From Clostridiales bacterium (GTDB taxonomy: Bacteria; Bacillota; Clostridia; Lachnospirales; Lachnospiraceae): a stretch of 47,718 nucleotides of DNA. Shown piece by piece: positions 37,968 through 46,844 of the stretch. The notes beneath the pieces are model-generated. The model was given only the letters and a program-made list of their open reading frames with translations, was not told where the DNA came from and made no database searches. The stretch spans positions 1-47,718 of the forward strand of contig JAAYSQ010000033.1 in assembly GCA_012523925.1 (NCBI GenBank), given 5' to 3'. How positions within the stretch are numbered: position 1 is the stretch's first letter; each line of letters starts with the position of its first letter. Position numbers and translations under genes: made by a program.

Positions 37968-38092
37968 TTAATGTTGCATATTGTTTTTTCTATATACTAT
38001 ATCTTGTAGAGTAATACATGAAAACAGGGCTAAAATTTGAAAAGAAAAAACATTTACATAATTACTGTCAGATAACTAGAAAGGATTACATT

Positions 38093-39454
38093 TTGAAAAA
38101 GACAAAAAATTTACTTCATGGAAATGAAACAAAGGCAATGTTAAGTTTCGCACTCCCTATGATAATAGGAAACATATTCCAGCAAATGTATAATGTTGCG
38201 GATACTGTTATTGTTGGTAAATATATAGGACCCAATGCACTTGCCGCAGTAGGCAGTTCATTTTCTATTATGGTTCTCTTAACTTCCATAATACTAGGGC
38301 TTTGTATGGGTAGTGGAGCGGTATTCTCGTATCTATATGGGGCAAATGAAATAGAGCGTCTTAAGAATAGTTTTTTTACTTCTTTCTGCTTTATTGGGAT
38401 TGTTTCATTAATAATAAACCTAGCCTCCTTCATTTTTATTGATGAAATTCTGCACTTTATCCGCATTCCCCAGGAAATATATAGTGATACCAAGATCTAT
38501 TTACTTGTTAATTTTTATGGAATACTTTTAACCTTTCTTTATAACTATTTTGCTTCCGTAATGCGAAGCTTGGGTGATTCTATGGTTCCTTTGATATTTC
38601 TAAGTATCGCTGCTGTCATTGATATTACATTGAATTATGTCTTTGTAGTTCCTATGAATATGGGAGTTGCTGGCGCTGCCTATGCTACCCTTGTTGCTCA
38701 AGTATTTTCAGCATTTGGGATTACAATTTATTGTATATTCAAGGTACCTTTAATCCGCCTGCAAAGAAAGCATATTTATTTTGATAAGAATATTGTTACC
38801 ATGATTGCAAACAACTCTGTTCTCACCAGTATTCAACAATCCATAATGAATTTTGGTATCTTAATGATACAGGGATTAGTAAATAGCTTTGGAGTAGCAG
38901 TTATGGCAGCCTTTACGGCAGTCGTTAAGATAGAAAGCTTTGCCTACTTGCCAGTGCAGGATTTTGGGAATGCATTTTCCACCTTCATTGCACAAAATGA
39001 TGGTGCAGGCAAGAAAGATCGTATTAAAAGCGGAATACGTTCCGCAGTCAAAATCATTACAATTTACTGTGCTATCATATCGGTATTGATCATTATATTT
39101 GCCAAGCCACTTATGTATATTTTTATTGACGCTGGAGAAACGGAGATATTAGGCATAGGCAAACAGTATCTACTTGTCGTTGCAAGTTTCTACTGCCTAA
39201 TCGGATACCTTTTTATGTTCTATGGTTTCTTTCGCGGGATTGGAAAGCCTCAAGTATCCATCATTCTTACAATAGCAAGCCTTGGTACTCGGGTTTTCCT
39301 AGCATATTTTCTCTCCTCGATTCCTTCCATCGGAATTGTTGGAATCTGGTGGTCTATCCCAATTGGATGGCTCCTGGCTGACATTATTGGAACCATTAAG
39401 GTTCGATCATTAATGCGCTCAAGAGAACAATTTCAGCTAAACCAAGAAACCTAG
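38093..39454 (+). CDS. MATE family efflux transporter
   Basis: NETKAMLSFALPMIIGNIFQQMYNVADTVIVGKYIGPNALAAVG; TTG start with RBS aaagga assumed (ORF track start 38018). Confidence 0.9.
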   Translation: MKKTKNLLHGNETKAMLSFALPMIIGNIFQQMYNVADTVIVGKYIGPNALAAVGSSFSIMVLLTSIILGLCMGSGAVFSYLYGANEIERLKNSFFTSFCFIGIVSLIINLASFIFIDEILHFIRIPQEIYSDTKIYLLVNFYGILLTFLYNYFASVMRSLGDSMVPLIFLSIAAVIDITLNYVFVVPMNMGVAGAAYATLVAQVFSAFGITIYCIFKVPLIRLQRKHIYFDKNIVTMIANNSVLTSIQQSIMNFGILMIQGLVNSFGVAVMAAFTAVVKIESFAYLPVQDFGNAFSTFIAQNDGAGKKDRIKSGIRSAVKIITIYCAIISVLIIIFAKPLMYIFIDAGETEILGIGKQYLLVVASFYCLIGYLFMFYGFFRGIGKPQVSIILTIASLGTRVFLAYFLSSIPSIGIVGIWWSIPIGWLLADIIGTIKVRSLMRSREQFQLNQET

Positions 39455-39844: not shown

Positions 39845-41179
39845 TTATTCAAACATACTTATCTTACTCTTACAATATAACGCATACACCGCAACGATTG
39901 CTTCAGTTAATACAAAAGCAAACCATATACCTGTCATTTTCCATGCTCGACTTAGTAATAGGACCATAGGAACGATAATCACACATCCCCTGGCGATGGA
40001 AATAAGGAATGAATCCTTTGCACTTTCCGTAGCACTTAAATACATGGCAATTATTATATTAAGACCTGCAAAGAAAAATCCGATAAAATAGATTCTTAAA
40101 CCAGTTTTAGACAATCTTGCAATTTCTATGTTTTGCTCACTGTTAAAAATTTGAACAATCCCATCTGAATAGACAAAAGTGACTGTATAAATAAATGTGG
40201 CAAAAATAAGAGAAGTAATTATTGCCATCTTAAGTACTTTCTTTAAAAATACACTATCTCTTTGTCCATATCCTTTACTGACCAGTGGTTGGATTCCTTG
40301 AGCAATTCCGGTGAAAATAGCAACCCCGATAAGAGCTAAATTCGCTATGATACCATAGGATGCGACTCCTAAATTCCCCTCCAGAGACAATATTACCAGA
40401 TTAAAGGTAATTAAGGTTATCGCAGAAGAAATCTCATTAATAAATGCAGATAATCCTAAGGCAAGAATGTCAATAATTCTAGATAATTCCATTCTGCATC
40501 GGAGCAAACGCAAATTACTCTTTCCCTTGATAAAATGGATTGAAGTCACCCCAATACTGATAATCGGTGCCAGACAAGTGGCAAAAGCAGCACCAAACAT
40601 CCCCATACCTAGAGGGAAGATGAATATGTAATCCAATATAATATTGGAAATGCTTCCTGTTAGCATAGCAATCATAGCAAGCTTTGGATTATGATCGTTG
40701 CGGACAAAAGCAATGATAATATTATTCAGTATGAAAAATGGGGCAAAGCAAAGGATTGTCATTAAATAAGTTTTCGTCATCATGAAAATTGATGAATCTG
40801 CACCTAACAGGATTGCTAAATTATCAGAAGCAATCACTCCAATAATCAAAAATATTAGCCCTAATAGTAGTCCTAATTTAATACTTATTGAAAATACAAT
40901 ATTCGTTCTTTCTTTTTCTTCTTGCGAATGTAATATACTATATCTAGTTGCGCCACCAATCCCAATCATTAAGCCCGTACCACTTATAATACTAAATACC
41001 GATATAGAAAGATTAAGCGCTGCTATCCCCGCTGCCCCCAATGCCTTTGATATAAAAAAGGTATCAGCCAGAATATAGCATGAGAGCGCTATCATTCCAA
41101 GAACATTTAAGCTTACATACTTCATAAAGTCTTTTAAAACTGTGTCTTTCATTTCATTCCCCTTTTCTTGATCCATCAC
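39845..41179 (-). CDS. MATE family efflux transporter
   Basis: Multi-TM MATE-like; LGAAGIAALNLSISVFSIISGTGLMIGIGGATRYS. Confidence 0.9.
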   Translation of the reverse strand: MMDQEKGNEMKDTVLKDFMKYVSLNVLGMIALSCYILADTFFISKALGAAGIAALNLSISVFSIISGTGLMIGIGGATRYSILHSQEEKERTNIVFSISIKLGLLLGLIFLIIGVIASDNLAILLGADSSIFMMTKTYLMTILCFAPFFILNNIIIAFVRNDHNPKLAMIAMLTGSISNIILDYIFIFPLGMGMFGAAFATCLAPIISIGVTSIHFIKGKSNLRLLRCRMELSRIIDILALGLSAFINEISSAITLITFNLVILSLEGNLGVASYGIIANLALIGVAIFTGIAQGIQPLVSKGYGQRDSVFLKKVLKMAIITSLIFATFIYTVTFVYSDGIVQIFNSEQNIEIARLSKTGLRIYFIGFFFAGLNIIIAMYLSATESAKDSFLISIARGCVIIVPMVLLLSRAWKMTGIWFAFVLTEAIVAVYALYCKSKISMFE

Positions 41180-41745: not shown

Positions 41746-43035
41746 CTAAAATAAAGGATCTAAGACTTTATTGATACCAAATTTATTATTAACCAAGAGC
41801 CATAACTGCGGAAAATAGAAAACTATATTCCATACACCAAAGCCAGCAAAGCCGTATTTTGGTACTAAATCTAGCCGAACATTAATACTTCTAGAGTCTT
41901 TAAAGCGAACAAAGTATTCATTTACATTTTCTACATATTGATAGAATGCAGTTTGTGAAAATTCATCAAACTGAATCGTAGCTCCAACTTGTTCTGCCAG
42001 TCGAATAGCAGATAAATAACTCATTGCAGCTGCCCTAGTTCCTTCGATATAGGGAATTCGCCATAGGTAACCCACACTAGGTATTCCTATGTATGTTTTA
42101 TTTGGTGGAATTTGCGTCACGGCATATTCTATTAAATCATTGATTAAGTCTAACGGCATTAGACTTATTGGTGGTCCGTATGTGAACCCCCATTCATACG
42201 ACAAAAGCATGGTTCCATCGGTTACCTGCCCAAGGCTTGCATAATCAAATCCTCTATATAGAAAGCCTGATTCTACTTCAAACGTACTTGGACTTAGCGT
42301 AATATTAACGATATAGCCTTCCGCATTTAACCTTTGTGTCATATTATCAACAAATGCAACATACCCCTCGCGGTCAGTAGGAGAAATGTAAGGGAAATCT
42401 ATAGTCAATCCATAGTATCCCTTACTACTCAAAATATCTAAAGCATTATTTATTAAACGATTTTGTATTTCTTCACTTGCTAATATATGGTTTATTACAT
42501 ATATATCATAGTAACCTTCTGCATCCCTTGTAGATATTAGCATTATAGGTGCAACCCCATATAGCTTAGCCGCTTCTATTATATCCCTATCATTAATGTC
42601 AATTAAATCGCCCTCGTAAGTAACCATATAATTAAATATCGTTAGATAAGTTAGATATGGTAATGTTTTTCTTAATGTATCGGAATCAATAAACGGATAA
42701 GTATAGCCATTCACGGAAGCATTCATAATTTTATTATCCATATAACTTATTACAAGTTCTTCTCCCGGAAAGATAAACTCTCTATTGGATAGATAAGGAT
42801 TATTCCTTATTAACTCTAGCACGCTTATATCGAATTCATTTGCAATACTGGATAAGGTATCACCTTCCCTAACCACATAAGTTTGTTTGGGAAACAAAAT
42901 CACCAAATCTTGCCCAGCAATCAAATTATCGGGATTGGGGATTTCATTCTCTAATATTAATCTATCAACAGAAACTTCGTAAAAATCTGCAATTGATTGG
43001 ATGGTTTCCCCTTGCTTTACAACATGTATTATCAT
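41746..43035 (-). CDS. LysM(x2)-GH18-like protein (YaaH/SleL architecture) with degenerate catalytic motif
   Basis: Two LysM motifs (VKQGETIQSIADFYEVSVDRL, VREGDTLSSIANEFDISVLEL); GH18 region YYGLTIDFPYISP. Confidence 0.88.
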   Translation of the reverse strand: MIIHVVKQGETIQSIADFYEVSVDRLILENEIPNPDNLIAGQDLVILFPKQTYVVREGDTLSSIANEFDISVLELIRNNPYLSNREFIFPGEELVISYMDNKIMNASVNGYTYPFIDSDTLRKTLPYLTYLTIFNYMVTYEGDLIDINDRDIIEAAKLYGVAPIMLISTRDAEGYYDIYVINHILASEEIQNRLINNALDILSSKGYYGLTIDFPYISPTDREGYVAFVDNMTQRLNAEGYIVNITLSPSTFEVESGFLYRGFDYASLGQVTDGTMLLSYEWGFTYGPPISLMPLDLINDLIEYAVTQIPPNKTYIGIPSVGYLWRIPYIEGTRAAAMSYLSAIRLAEQVGATIQFDEFSQTAFYQYVENVNEYFVRFKDSRSINVRLDLVPKYGFAGFGVWNIVFYFPQLWLLVNNKFGINKVLDPLF

Positions 43036-43119: not shown

Positions 43120-45855
43120 CTATTTCAAGATATCCCATATATCTGCATTGAACTTATCACCCAAATAAGCACGGCCGATTTGAGGTTTATCAAGATAATC
43201 CCTACGGATCTGCTCACGAATTCGATAAATTTCATCTTTTAGTTCGCTAGCTGAAAGCCTCGTCGCTCCATGGCCCAAGATGATTAATTGTTCAGTCGCA
43301 TCGGAGGTTGCAACAACCACACGGTGTATTCGTGAAATTTCCCGAGTTACTTTTTCTATATACTGATCCGCAGTCTCAGCTTCCTTAGTATATACTACGT
43401 GGATATTATTGTATTCCTGTACTTCTCCTATACCGCCTTTTACTTTATAGGCATCAAAGACTAGAATTACATTACATTTCGTAAAGCCTTGATAGTTACA
43501 TAGGATGTCCATGAGTTTATATCTAGCGGAATCCATATTTTCCTTAGCAAGTTCATTTAATTCCTCCCAAGAAAATATAATATTATAGCCATCTACCAAA
43601 AGATATTCTTCCACTACTTGTTTTTCACTTGAATCCGCTGGGTGGTTTAACTGGACCTTTCTAATTCTTTCTTTTTTCTCATATCCGAACCTGCCATGCG
43701 AATAATTAATTTTCTGTTTAATTGGTCCAAAGGTACGAACAAAGATATCTTCTAACTCTTTATCTTCCTGTAATGAATTGCTAATCGTTGTTCTGGGCTT
43801 AGCAGCAACCTGCTTTCTATTTTTCTCTTGAGGCTTCTTGGTCTCATTGGTTTCTTCTGTTACAGGTGGTTGCCAACCACTTTCCAAATGCATATAATCT
43901 TCAACTTTATCCCATTCTACAACGAAGCCAGCTCCATGGGCACAAAACACGGAACCGGTTGGATTACCGATATCTCTTTCACTATCATAACCAATCAATT
44001 CAATTACTTCATCCGCATTGTGGCAAGGAAAATATCCTTTAAGTGTACAGTACATTCTTCCCCTGCCCTTAGTGTAAGCTATTACTTCCGTATGATAACC
44101 TCGCATGGAAGCAACGGGAGCACTCCCAATTAAGATTGACATATCTCCAGCTATCTCTGGAGGGTTAAATTCCCCATTCATCCGTCCAATATCGTTCATG
44201 GCTCTACCTACCATTTCCGATGGAACTTCTAATTTGAAATTATAATATGGTTCCAAAAGAACACTCTTTGCCTTCTTTAATCCCTGCCGTACAGCCCGAT
44301 AAGTCGCCTGTCGGAAATCGCCTCCTTCGGTATGTTTCTGATGAGCACGACCAGCAATTAGGGTAATCTTCATATCGGTAATTGGAGATCCTGTTAAAAC
44401 TCCCACATGCTCTTTTTCCTCCAAATGAGTTAGAATCAGCCTCTGCCAGCTTCTATCTAAGACATCCTCACTGCAACTGCTGTCATATACTAGTCCACTT
44501 CCTGGTTCGCCAGGTTCTAAAGCCAAATGGACTTCTGCATAATGCCTTAATGGTTCAAAATGCCCCACACCTACTACAGGCTCTGCAATTGTTTCTTTAT
44601 AAACAATATTTCCAGGCCCAAATTCCACATCAACTCCAAAACGTTCCAGGATTAAACTTTTTAAAATTTCTGTTTGTACCTCTCCCATCAACTGGACATG
44701 AATTTCTTTGAGAGGTTCAGACCAAACAATATGCAACTGAGGGTCTTCTTCCTCCAACTGACGAAATTTAGAGAGCATACTATAAGCATTATACTCCGGA
44801 GGCAATAAAATTTGATAGTTCAGTACTGGTTGTAGAATAGGCATGTCCGCACCAGCTTCAATACCAAGTCCTTCCCCAGGATAAGTATTGCCAAGTCCAG
44901 TAACCGCACAAATGGTACCGGCATCTGCTTGATCTACAGTTTCATACTTTGTTCCGGAATATATTCGGATTTGATCGACTTTCTCTTCCCATATCTCATC
45001 AATATTTTCTTCAACTTCCTTGCCAACCGCTTTTTCTTTACTTTCACCTTTGCGATTGGTTAGCAACATTTTTACCGATATATTTCCTCCCGTAATTCGC
45101 ATATGAGTCAAGCGGTTGCCCTGATCATCTCTAGAAATCTTAAAAATCTTTGCTCCAAAGCTTTCTGGATAATCTGCCATTCTTGTAAATTGCTTCAATC
45201 CATCTAAGAATTCTTGCACTCCGTCCAACTTTAAAGCTGATCCAAAATAACAAGGAAAGACCTTCCTTTTTGCAATTACAGAAATAATATCTTCTGTAGT
45301 AATCGTATCATTTTCAATATATCTCTCCAGCAACACCTCATCCGACATAGCGATATCTTCCATAAATTCACTGGAGCTAAGGTCCATGTTAAAATCCATA
45401 CATCCTTCACTCAAGAGCTTTCTTAACTCTTCCATGAGTGCATGACGATCGTTCCCTTCCACATCCATCTTGTTTATAAATAAAAAGGTAGGGATTCGAT
45501 ACCTAGCAAGCAGGCTCCATAATGTCTCTGTATGTCCTTGAACACCATCACTACCATTAATCACCAATATTGCATAGTCAAGAACCTGTAATGTCCGTTC
45601 CATCTCTGCAGAAAAATCCACATGTCCTGGCGTATCTAGCAAGGTTACTTCCATATCTTGATATCCAAAAACCGCTTGTTTTGAAAATATAGTAATTCCT
45701 CTTGCTCGCTCCAGCGCATTCGTATCTAGAAAGGCATCTTTATGATCCACCCGACCTAATTTACGGATACTACCTGTCAGATACAACATACTTTCAGCAA
45801 GCGTTGTTTTCCCTGCATCCACATGAGCTAGAATGCCAATTGCTAACTTCTTCAT
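43120..45855 (-). CDS. TetM/EF-G-like translational GTPase fused to C-terminal NYN (YacP/Rae1-like) nuclease domain
   Basis: AHVDAGKTT, DTPGHVDF, NKMD; EF-G domains III-V; linker; EYLLVDGYNIIFSW...VILVFDAY...EAETADQYIEKV...VVATSDATEQ. Confidence 0.92.
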   Translation of the reverse strand: MKKLAIGILAHVDAGKTTLAESMLYLTGSIRKLGRVDHKDAFLDTNALERARGITIFSKQAVFGYQDMEVTLLDTPGHVDFSAEMERTLQVLDYAILVINGSDGVQGHTETLWSLLARYRIPTFLFINKMDVEGNDRHALMEELRKLLSEGCMDFNMDLSSSEFMEDIAMSDEVLLERYIENDTITTEDIISVIAKRKVFPCYFGSALKLDGVQEFLDGLKQFTRMADYPESFGAKIFKISRDDQGNRLTHMRITGGNISVKMLLTNRKGESKEKAVGKEVEENIDEIWEEKVDQIRIYSGTKYETVDQADAGTICAVTGLGNTYPGEGLGIEAGADMPILQPVLNYQILLPPEYNAYSMLSKFRQLEEEDPQLHIVWSEPLKEIHVQLMGEVQTEILKSLILERFGVDVEFGPGNIVYKETIAEPVVGVGHFEPLRHYAEVHLALEPGEPGSGLVYDSSCSEDVLDRSWQRLILTHLEEKEHVGVLTGSPITDMKITLIAGRAHQKHTEGGDFRQATYRAVRQGLKKAKSVLLEPYYNFKLEVPSEMVGRAMNDIGRMNGEFNPPEIAGDMSILIGSAPVASMRGYHTEVIAYTKGRGRMYCTLKGYFPCHNADEVIELIGYDSERDIGNPTGSVFCAHGAGFVVEWDKVEDYMHLESGWQPPVTEETNETKKPQEKNRKQVAAKPRTTISNSLQEDKELEDIFVRTFGPIKQKINYSHGRFGYEKKERIRKVQLNHPADSSEKQVVEEYLLVDGYNIIFSWEELNELAKENMDSARYKLMDILCNYQGFTKCNVILVFDAYKVKGGIGEVQEYNNIHVVYTKEAETADQYIEKVTREISRIHRVVVATSDATEQLIILGHGATRLSASELKDEIYRIREQIRRDYLDKPQIGRAYLGDKFNADIWDILK

Positions 45856-46844
45856 TATATAATTGACCTTCTAATCTCTTCTTCGGTTTTGCTAGAAAGG
45901 TATGCTGGAGCAATATCAACGACCGTTTTAGCTCCAGATATGCCCTCCTGATTCAACCGATAAGCAGCTCTTGCATAGGCAATAATTACATTTGCCGTAA
46001 AATCAGGGTTTGATTTTAATGATAATTTATATTCTATGGTATGACTATTCTCCTCCTGTAATCCAGTTTTACCAGAACGGATTACCAATCCACCATGGGG
46101 CAGTCCACTATGCTTCTCTTGCAACTCCTGTTCGCTAACGAAGTGAACTTCTGTGTCATAGTCAGCAAAATAATTTGGCATAGATATTATTTCTTGCTTA
46201 ATTCGGGCTTTATCAGCACCCTCTTTGGCAACAACAAAGCACTCTCTTCGATGCTTCTCTCTTGTTGTAAATTCAGGCATTTCTCCCTTTTTCACAGATT
46301 CAATTGCACTCTCAATAGGGATGGTATACTGTTTTGCATCCTGAACACCTTCAACTCTACGTATCGCATCTGAATGCCCTTGACTAATTCCTTTCCCCCA
46401 GAAAGTATAGGTGCTTCCCTCTGGTAAGATAGCTTCCGCATATAAACGATTGATGGAAAACATACCCGGATCCCATCCACTGGAAATAACACATACTTTT
46501 TCTGATTCTTTTGCAATTTTATTAATTTCATTAAAGTAATCCGCTATTTTGGCATGGTTATCATAGGCATCCACGGTATTGAACATGCTAGCAAAGAGCG
46601 GACCTTGCTCCGGTATATCGGATGCACTTCCACCACATAGTATCATTACATCAATTTGGTCTGTCATCTTCTTTGCATCATCAATATGATAAACCACTGC
46701 ACCTTCAGTCACTGTTATTATTGACGTTGGATCACGCCTTGTAAATATACCAACAAGCTCCATATCTTTATTTTGTCTAATTCCCAATTCTACACTTTTT
46801 CCTAGATTTCCGTATCCTACAATTCCTATTTTAATTTTTCTCAT
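45855..46844 (-). CDS. ddh: meso-Diaminopimelate D-dehydrogenase
   Basis: KIGIVGYGNLGKSVELGI; ILCGGSASDIPEQGP; SSGWDPGMFSINR; WGKGISQGHSDAIRR. Confidence 0.93.
   Translation of the reverse strand: MRKIKIGIVGYGNLGKSVELGIRQNKDMELVGIFTRRDPTSIITVTEGAVVYHIDDAKKMTDQIDVMILCGGSASDIPEQGPLFASMFNTVDAYDNHAKIADYFNEINKIAKESEKVCVISSGWDPGMFSINRLYAEAILPEGSTYTFWGKGISQGHSDAIRRVEGVQDAKQYTIPIESAIESVKKGEMPEFTTREKHRRECFVVAKEGADKARIKQEIISMPNYFADYDTEVHFVSEQELQEKHSGLPHGGLVIRSGKTGLQEENSHTIEYKLSLKSNPDFTANVIIAYARAAYRLNQEGISGAKTVVDIAPAYLSSKTEEEIRRSII

Follow-up and report, generated by a model that had tools for sequence, protein, structure and literature searches.

A gene on the minus strand of the window (the whole stretch of 47,718 nucleotides analysed here), at positions 43120..45855, encodes a single protein of 911 aa in which a translational GTPase is fused to a Rae1-type ribonuclease. 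The gene starts with ATG at 45855 and stops at 43122-43120. The original prediction had the position and the length of the product right and left the strand unstated, the plus-strand translation being filled with stops. A chance reading frame or a chimeric assembly is ruled out, because 80 homologous loci with 56-72% identity are present in other genomes, nearly all of them full length.

Factors of the EF-G/TetM type reach the ribosomal A site. To our knowledge, ribosome-bound mRNA is the substrate of few bacterial nucleases, Rae1 among them; SmrB/MutS2 (Smr) nucleases also cleave mRNA on ribosomes. In B. subtilis, Rae1 acts as an endonuclease on mRNA positioned in the A site of the ribosome (PMC6613710, PMC10100781, PMC12320835), and mRNA cleavage on ribosomes is described for both RelE and Rae1 (PMC12320835).

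The architecture of the fusion is already known. Atkinson 2015 (BMC Genomics 16:78, PMC4342817) describes Tet proteins with a YacP-like NYN RNase domain in ten Clostridiales species, and proposes for them either an rRNA RNase activity or an RNase-based resistance mechanism. The layout is the same as that of the window protein, namely an EF-G/Tet-like GTPase followed by a YacP-like NYN domain, in Clostridia. The paper predates the characterisation of Rae1, and neither the replacement of rae1 nor a non-Tet GTPase clade appears in the text consulted. The earlier statement that the function is undescribed holds for experiments, of which our literature search found none in any organism, but not for the idea, since the fusion had been published together with an RNase suggestion. 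What is added here is the replacement of rae1, a GTPase clade apart from Tet, an altered loop III and a relaxed C-terminal tail. The window protein is a widespread and conserved member of the reported family, and probably acts as a GTPase-delivered Rae1.

Domain layout of the fusion protein

The EF-G/TetM-type translational GTPase spans residues 1-613 and the NYN_YacP (Rae1) domain residues 752-910. The G domain (residues 1-223; 45187..45855, minus strand) matches Pfam GTP_EFTU at 4-223 (E 4e-50) and contains the AHVDAGKT, RGIT, DTPGH, NKMD and GSA motifs, whose residues are each kept in 114 or more of the 119 fused homologues, and nearly all of them in 119/119. It is followed by EF-G/Tet-like domains II-V (residues 234-613; 44017..45156, minus strand), which are recognized by Foldseek matches to EF-G and by the Pfam profiles EFG_III (343-413), EFG_IV (416-530), EFG_C (532-613) and, weakly, EF-G_D2, the domain II profile that scores below its cut-off. 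The protein thus has what defines a GTPase of the EF-G/EF2 type, namely motifs G1-G5, including the histidine of DTPGH, together with domains III, IV and V; both the Pfam matches and the motif alignment bear out the predicted complete G motifs and domains III-V. The closest solved chains of this N-terminal part are TetM, TetO and EF-G. The best NCBIfam family is that of the Tet protection proteins, at 423.8 bits against a cut-off of 775 for the tet_protect equivalog, which is not reached. The earlier naming of the protein as TetM/EF-G-type is therefore correct at the level of the superfamily, but not as a Tet equivalog (424 vs. 775 bits).

The GTPase has a C-terminal extension (residues 601-660; 43876..44055, minus strand) with the conserved residues C611, C638 and H656, which are jointly present in 116/119 fused homologues. 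The extension is common to short relatives of the GTPase that have no NYN domain; the three residues are absent from Tet proteins. The extension is a possible metal site.

The linker that follows (residues 661-747; 43615..43875, minus strand) is predicted to be disordered, with pLDDT values below 50 at 665-696 and 710-745. Its length ranges from 54 to 180 residues among homologues, with a median of 76 and about 88 in the window protein. Within it lies a short helix (residues 697-713, EDKELEDIFVRTFGPIK; 43717..43767, minus strand), modelled as helix 694-709. The helix, KELEDIFVRTFGP, has the consensus KELExIFxRTYG, with E700 conserved in 116/119, I704 in 114/119 and T708 in 112/119 fused proteins, and its docking partner could be either the ribosome or the GTPase. 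The median pairwise identity among fusions is 66% for the NYN core, 64% for the GTPase and 23% for the linker. In a full-length AlphaFold2 model (mean pLDDT 77.6, pTM 0.57), the GTPase and the NYN domain are well ordered and the linker is disordered, which leaves the placement of the two domains relative to each other undefined. One fused protein, L129 (G130), has a frame of 1095 aa in which the NYN domain is matched in two pieces, which suggests an insertion inside the nuclease domain.

The NYN_YacP/Rae1-type ribonuclease domain itself (residues 752-910; 43126..43602, minus strand) matches its Pfam profile with an E of 7e-52 and a score of 176 bits, well over the cut-off (24.6). In a sequence search, the closest solved chains are those of Rae1/YacP, 5mq8 and 5mq9 (E 2e-27). 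When modelled alone with AF2, the domain has a pLDDT of 83, and Foldseek placed this model on the B. subtilis Rae1 structures 5mq8/5mq9, at E 1e-10 and 41-43% identity, with no other match below 0.001 (the next at 3e-3). Profile, sequence and predicted fold all agree with the Rae1/YacP-like domain that had been named at the outset for the C-terminal part.

Four catalytic-type aspartates of Rae1 are retained, all encoded on the minus strand: D755 (Rae1 D7; 43591..43593) in the VDGYN motif; D801 (Rae1 D53; 43453..43455) in VFDAY; D830 (Rae1 D81; 43366..43368) in ETADQYIE; and D852 (Rae1 D104; 43300..43302) in ATSD. Each of them, and all four together, are found in 119/119 fused homologues. In an alignment of NYN domains, the positions of Rae1 D7, D53, D81 and D104 are acidic in 120/120 fused and 18/18 free proteins. 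The acidic motifs read from the sequence at the outset are thus confirmed, with no loss in the 119 homologues.

By profile score, active-site acidic residues and fold, the domain belongs with Rae1/YacP; its gene location and C-terminal tail do not follow that family. With B. subtilis Rae1 it shares a 41-43% identical NYN core, the four aspartates and the same predicted fold. However, the B. subtilis protein is a free polypeptide of 170 aa with a fixed tail, encoded in the rlmB-sigH operon, whereas in the fusion the domain sits at the C-terminus of a GTPase and its tail is divergent. Free Rae1 proteins have a tail of 36-40 residues in 18/18 cases, ending in an LExxR-type motif, while the tails of the fusions fall outside this range in 92/120 (in range in 28/120) and are shorter than 30 residues in 23. 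One tail residue is mutated in solved Rae1, 5mq9 being the W164L variant. Another tail mutation, R166P, is a suppressor of efp of the loss-of-function class in B. subtilis (PMC6613710). The tail may be a ribosome-targeting element that becomes dispensable upon fusion to the GTPase; its divergence in the fusions would be expected if ribosome targeting had passed to the GTPase.

The GTPase clade and its domain IV tip

The relationships of the GTPase were analysed in a tree inferred from 96 sequences by a quick search, with a root that serves the drawing alone. The 61 fused proteins form one group (support 96), and their sisters are 13 NYN-less GTPases (support 99) from Clostridia and Paenibacillus, about 650-674 aa long. 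The fused and short proteins together have a support of 100. Tet(M/O/S) and an OtrA-like protein form a separate group (support 99), and EF-G lies outside. A tree of the NYN domains does not recover a single fused clade unaided (3 changes), the AU test giving p 0.24 for one clade.

In domain IV, the loop III at the tip (residues 502-515, GRAHQKHTEGGDFR; 44311..44352, minus strand) replaces the SPVSTPADF of Tet(M/O/S). The tip reads KHTEGGDFR in the window protein, and most residues of the stretch are invariant (alignment A1). KHTxGGD is found in 117/119 fused proteins and [KE]HTxGGD in 13/13 short GTPases, compared to 0/6 Tet and no EF-G references.

The NYN-less short GTPases are close relatives of the fused GTPase, with which they share 45-50% identity, loop III and the C611/C638/H656 residues. 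They differ from the fusion in having no NYN domain, and free Rae1 is encoded elsewhere in many of their genomes. The databases label these short GTPases (L083-L094, L172, L206; also those on Ligilactobacillus salivarius megaplasmids) as Tet despite their differing loop III.

Replacement of free rae1 and proposed delivery of the nuclease

The window genome (85% complete) has one NYN_YacP match, namely the fused copy. A survey of domain co-occurrence, which the original prediction had proposed, found the fusion to be usual in the window's family and common in Clostridia (150 and 224 genomes, respectively). Of the 150 family genomes, about 123 have the fused form, 8 have a free copy, 4 are unclear and 15 lack the domain, as tallied by hand from the reading frames of an NYN_YacP family search; in none of these 150 do intact fused and free copies occur together. 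In the class sample, the 224 genomes with a readable frame divide into 122 with the fusion, 97 with a free copy and 5 that are unclear, with G477 as the sole clear fused-plus-free genome. The fusion thus nearly always replaces free Rae1.

The GTPase, in turn, seldom occurs on its own. In complete genomes of the class, GTPases at least 52% identical to the query belong to reading frames about 790-1045 aa long. There are a few exceptions; these lie at contig ends or frame breaks, and their NYN frame is found close by or at the end of a different contig. In the phylum sample, every GTPase at least 54% identical to the query is of fused length. A GTPase of the fused clade thus almost always carries an NYN domain.

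The replacement can also be followed at the rae1 locus. The gene lies in the rlmB-sigH operon in B. subtilis, C. difficile, G024, G099, G054, G029, G007 and G309, the operons of G029 and G007 being visible up to rlmB-rae1 only. In six genomes with the fusion (G102, G144, G085, G138, G035, G104), rlmB is directly followed by sigH in the cysS-mrnC-rlmB-rae1-sigH operon, and rae1 is absent from it. In the window genome, cysS-mrnC is followed by neither rlmB nor rae1, and the fused gene is located elsewhere. In two genomes, free Rae1 genes lie outside the rlmB-sigH operon (L112 in G059 and L118 in G391) and their sequences are close to fused NYN domains; they may have been released from a fusion, or may have moved.

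Since the fused form stands in for the free-standing gene, these patterns suggest that the GTPase took over bringing the Rae1 nuclease to ribosomes. On balance, we favour the view that the fusion is a Rae1-type ribosome-dependent endoribonuclease permanently joined to its own ribosome-delivery factor. The delivery of the nuclease to the A site by the GTPase fits the comparative evidence, because free rae1 is lost where the fusion is present and the tail of free Rae1 is relaxed. Ribosome binding by the GTPase, delivery, the order of events, the substrate and cleavage are what we infer from these comparisons. On a ribosome that is slow or has stalled and whose A site is free, the EF-G/TetM-like GTPase would bind at the factor site, with the tip of its domain IV reaching into the decoding centre. 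Through the flexibility of the linker (about 88 residues), the NYN domain would then be able to cleave the mRNA within the A site or beside it, either while the GTPase is bound or shortly after it leaves, and GTP hydrolysis would release the factor. Trans-translation and decay would take over the truncated mRNA; the window genome encodes SmpB. A Smr-domain protein of MutS2 size is encoded separately, as are further GTPases, two EF-G-like frames among them. The Smr nucleases SmrB/MutS2 and the A-site toxins of the RelE type have folds unrelated to that of the fusion and have no translational GTPase.

Several points speak against delivery. If the GTPase binds and the NYN domain enters at one and the same A site, the two could get in each other's way. 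Rae1 acts alone in B. subtilis, and so the GTPase is not strictly needed; the fusion could be a mere tether. The NYN tree, in which no single fused clade is recovered, and the undefined placement of the two domains in the model also count against it. The corresponding alternative, to which we give a minor share of probability, is that the GTPase is a general EF-G-like translation factor, with Rae1 simply tethered to it, retained near ribosomes or co-expressed, and without GTP gating. A long and variable linker is compatible with such loose tethering. The NYN-less sister GTPases of 650-674 aa stand alone, free Rae1 being encoded at another site of the genome: short GTPases are present in 5 of the 8 family genomes with a free NYN (G059, G024, G099, G054, G029), and the class genomes with a short GTPase comprise 13 with free Rae1, 4 without NYN_YacP and 0 with the fusion (raw counts in both cases, ignoring kinship). 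However, the scarcity, in complete genomes, of fused-clade GTPases without the NYN domain argues against independent roles, the conserved short helix in the linker suggests a defined coupling, and family genomes without NYN_YacP were also without a GTPase of this group (0/11 tested).

A stricter form of GTPase-mediated delivery is an appealing but more tentative proposal, which we hold somewhat short of even. Here, the GTPase would be an obligate, GTP-gated mRNase carrier, whose KHTEGGDFR tip would inspect the A site before the same molecule cuts the mRNA of the stalled ribosome, making the fusion a class of rescue factor apart from both Tet and free Rae1. If this is true, no-go decay in many gut Clostridia would be a one-protein, GTP-dependent step. 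The widespread fusion, together with the loss of the free gene, also offers a direct experimental handle, since mutants of the GTPase can separate recruitment from cutting.

Possible roles in antibiotic protection or RNA processing, and the gene neighbourhood

The original prediction also named antibiotic-bound ribosomes as a possible site of action, and a protein protecting ribosomes from tetracycline or another antibiotic, with an added RNase activity, has to be considered. The GTPase is homologous to Tet(M/O), with the same five-domain EF-G-like plan, a C-terminal extension and about 30% identity. The extension of TetM is important for its function (PMC4750697), and RNase-based resistance is among the proposals of Atkinson 2015 (PMC4342817). 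Furthermore, some records carry the name 'TetM/TetW/TetO/TetS family', as had been anticipated for such fusions.

Nonetheless, the fusion differs from Tet(M)/Tet(O) in its separate clade, in having KHTEGGDFR for SPVSTP, in its extra nuclease and in not being mobile. SPV in loop III is found in 0/119 fused proteins, compared to SPVS/APSS in 6/6 Tet references, and Pro509 of this loop in TetM sits in the tetracycline site (PMC8161019). With the drug-contacting loop replaced, classical tetracycline protection by the fusion appears doubtful. TetM tolerates some substitutions in loop III (PMC4750697), so that the difference weakens drug protection and does not exclude it. In addition, the gene is chromosomal, nearly universal in the family and, at the window locus, translationally coupled to a biosynthetic gene. 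Resistance predictors leave the Agathobacter and Monoglobus copies of the fusion unflagged while flagging tet(M). Among 72,556 plasmid records, two match more than 80% of the protein, one of them being either the Monoglobus fusion or the Paenibacillus GTPase that has no NYN domain and lies on a record of 2.7 Mb. Antibiotic resistance is thus a weak reading of the fusion and quite improbable, and the role proposed at antibiotic-bound ribosomes found no support.

A mobile resistance gene was rejected: the plasmid matches that are fused are on records of 518 kb (Monoglobus) and 252 kb (Agathobacter), and the rest are Tet or other GTPases. Two matches named 'Bacteriophage sp.' come from unverified scaffolds of faecal origin; their fused ORFs are full length, and the DNA is probably that of a host. 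Twelve C. difficile 'plasmid' matches look like chromosome fragments; the one that was opened, L205 (NZ_CP149721.1), contains a cysS-rlmB-rae1-sigH-nusG region with a normal rlmB-rae1-sigH operon.

The label 'tetracycline resistance ribosomal protection protein' on many copies from gut Clostridia is misleading, given the differing drug-contacting loop, and could for the same reason inflate resistome counts based on names of this kind.

A role in rRNA/tRNA processing or ribosome quality, in which the GTPase would bind ribosomes or their precursors and the NYN domain would cut rRNA or tRNA, is in keeping with the first proposal for NYN domains (rRNA/tRNA maturation; Anantharaman and Aravind 2006, as quoted in PMC4342817) and with the RNA genes mrnC and rlmB next to the ancestral rae1. 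It is quite improbable, because the characterised protein nearest to the domain in both sequence and fold is Rae1, whose described targets are mRNAs in translation.

The upstream neighbour at the window locus encodes diaminopimelate dehydrogenase (45855..46844, minus strand). Its TAA stop shares one base with the ATG of the fusion (TAATG), and the two are therefore probably co-translated. No conserved operon partner of the fusion gene was found among the 80 loci, and the adjacency of diaminopimelate dehydrogenase is not conserved elsewhere. The downstream neighbour (41746-43035, minus strand) encodes a protein with LysM repeats and a GH18 domain that resembles spore-coat/cortex glycosidases. 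Further along lie two genes for MATE-type exporters on opposite strands, at 38018-39454 (plus strand, 478 aa) and 39845-41179 (minus strand, 444 aa). MATE genes are found within the flanks of 19/81 fusion loci, and are common anyway.
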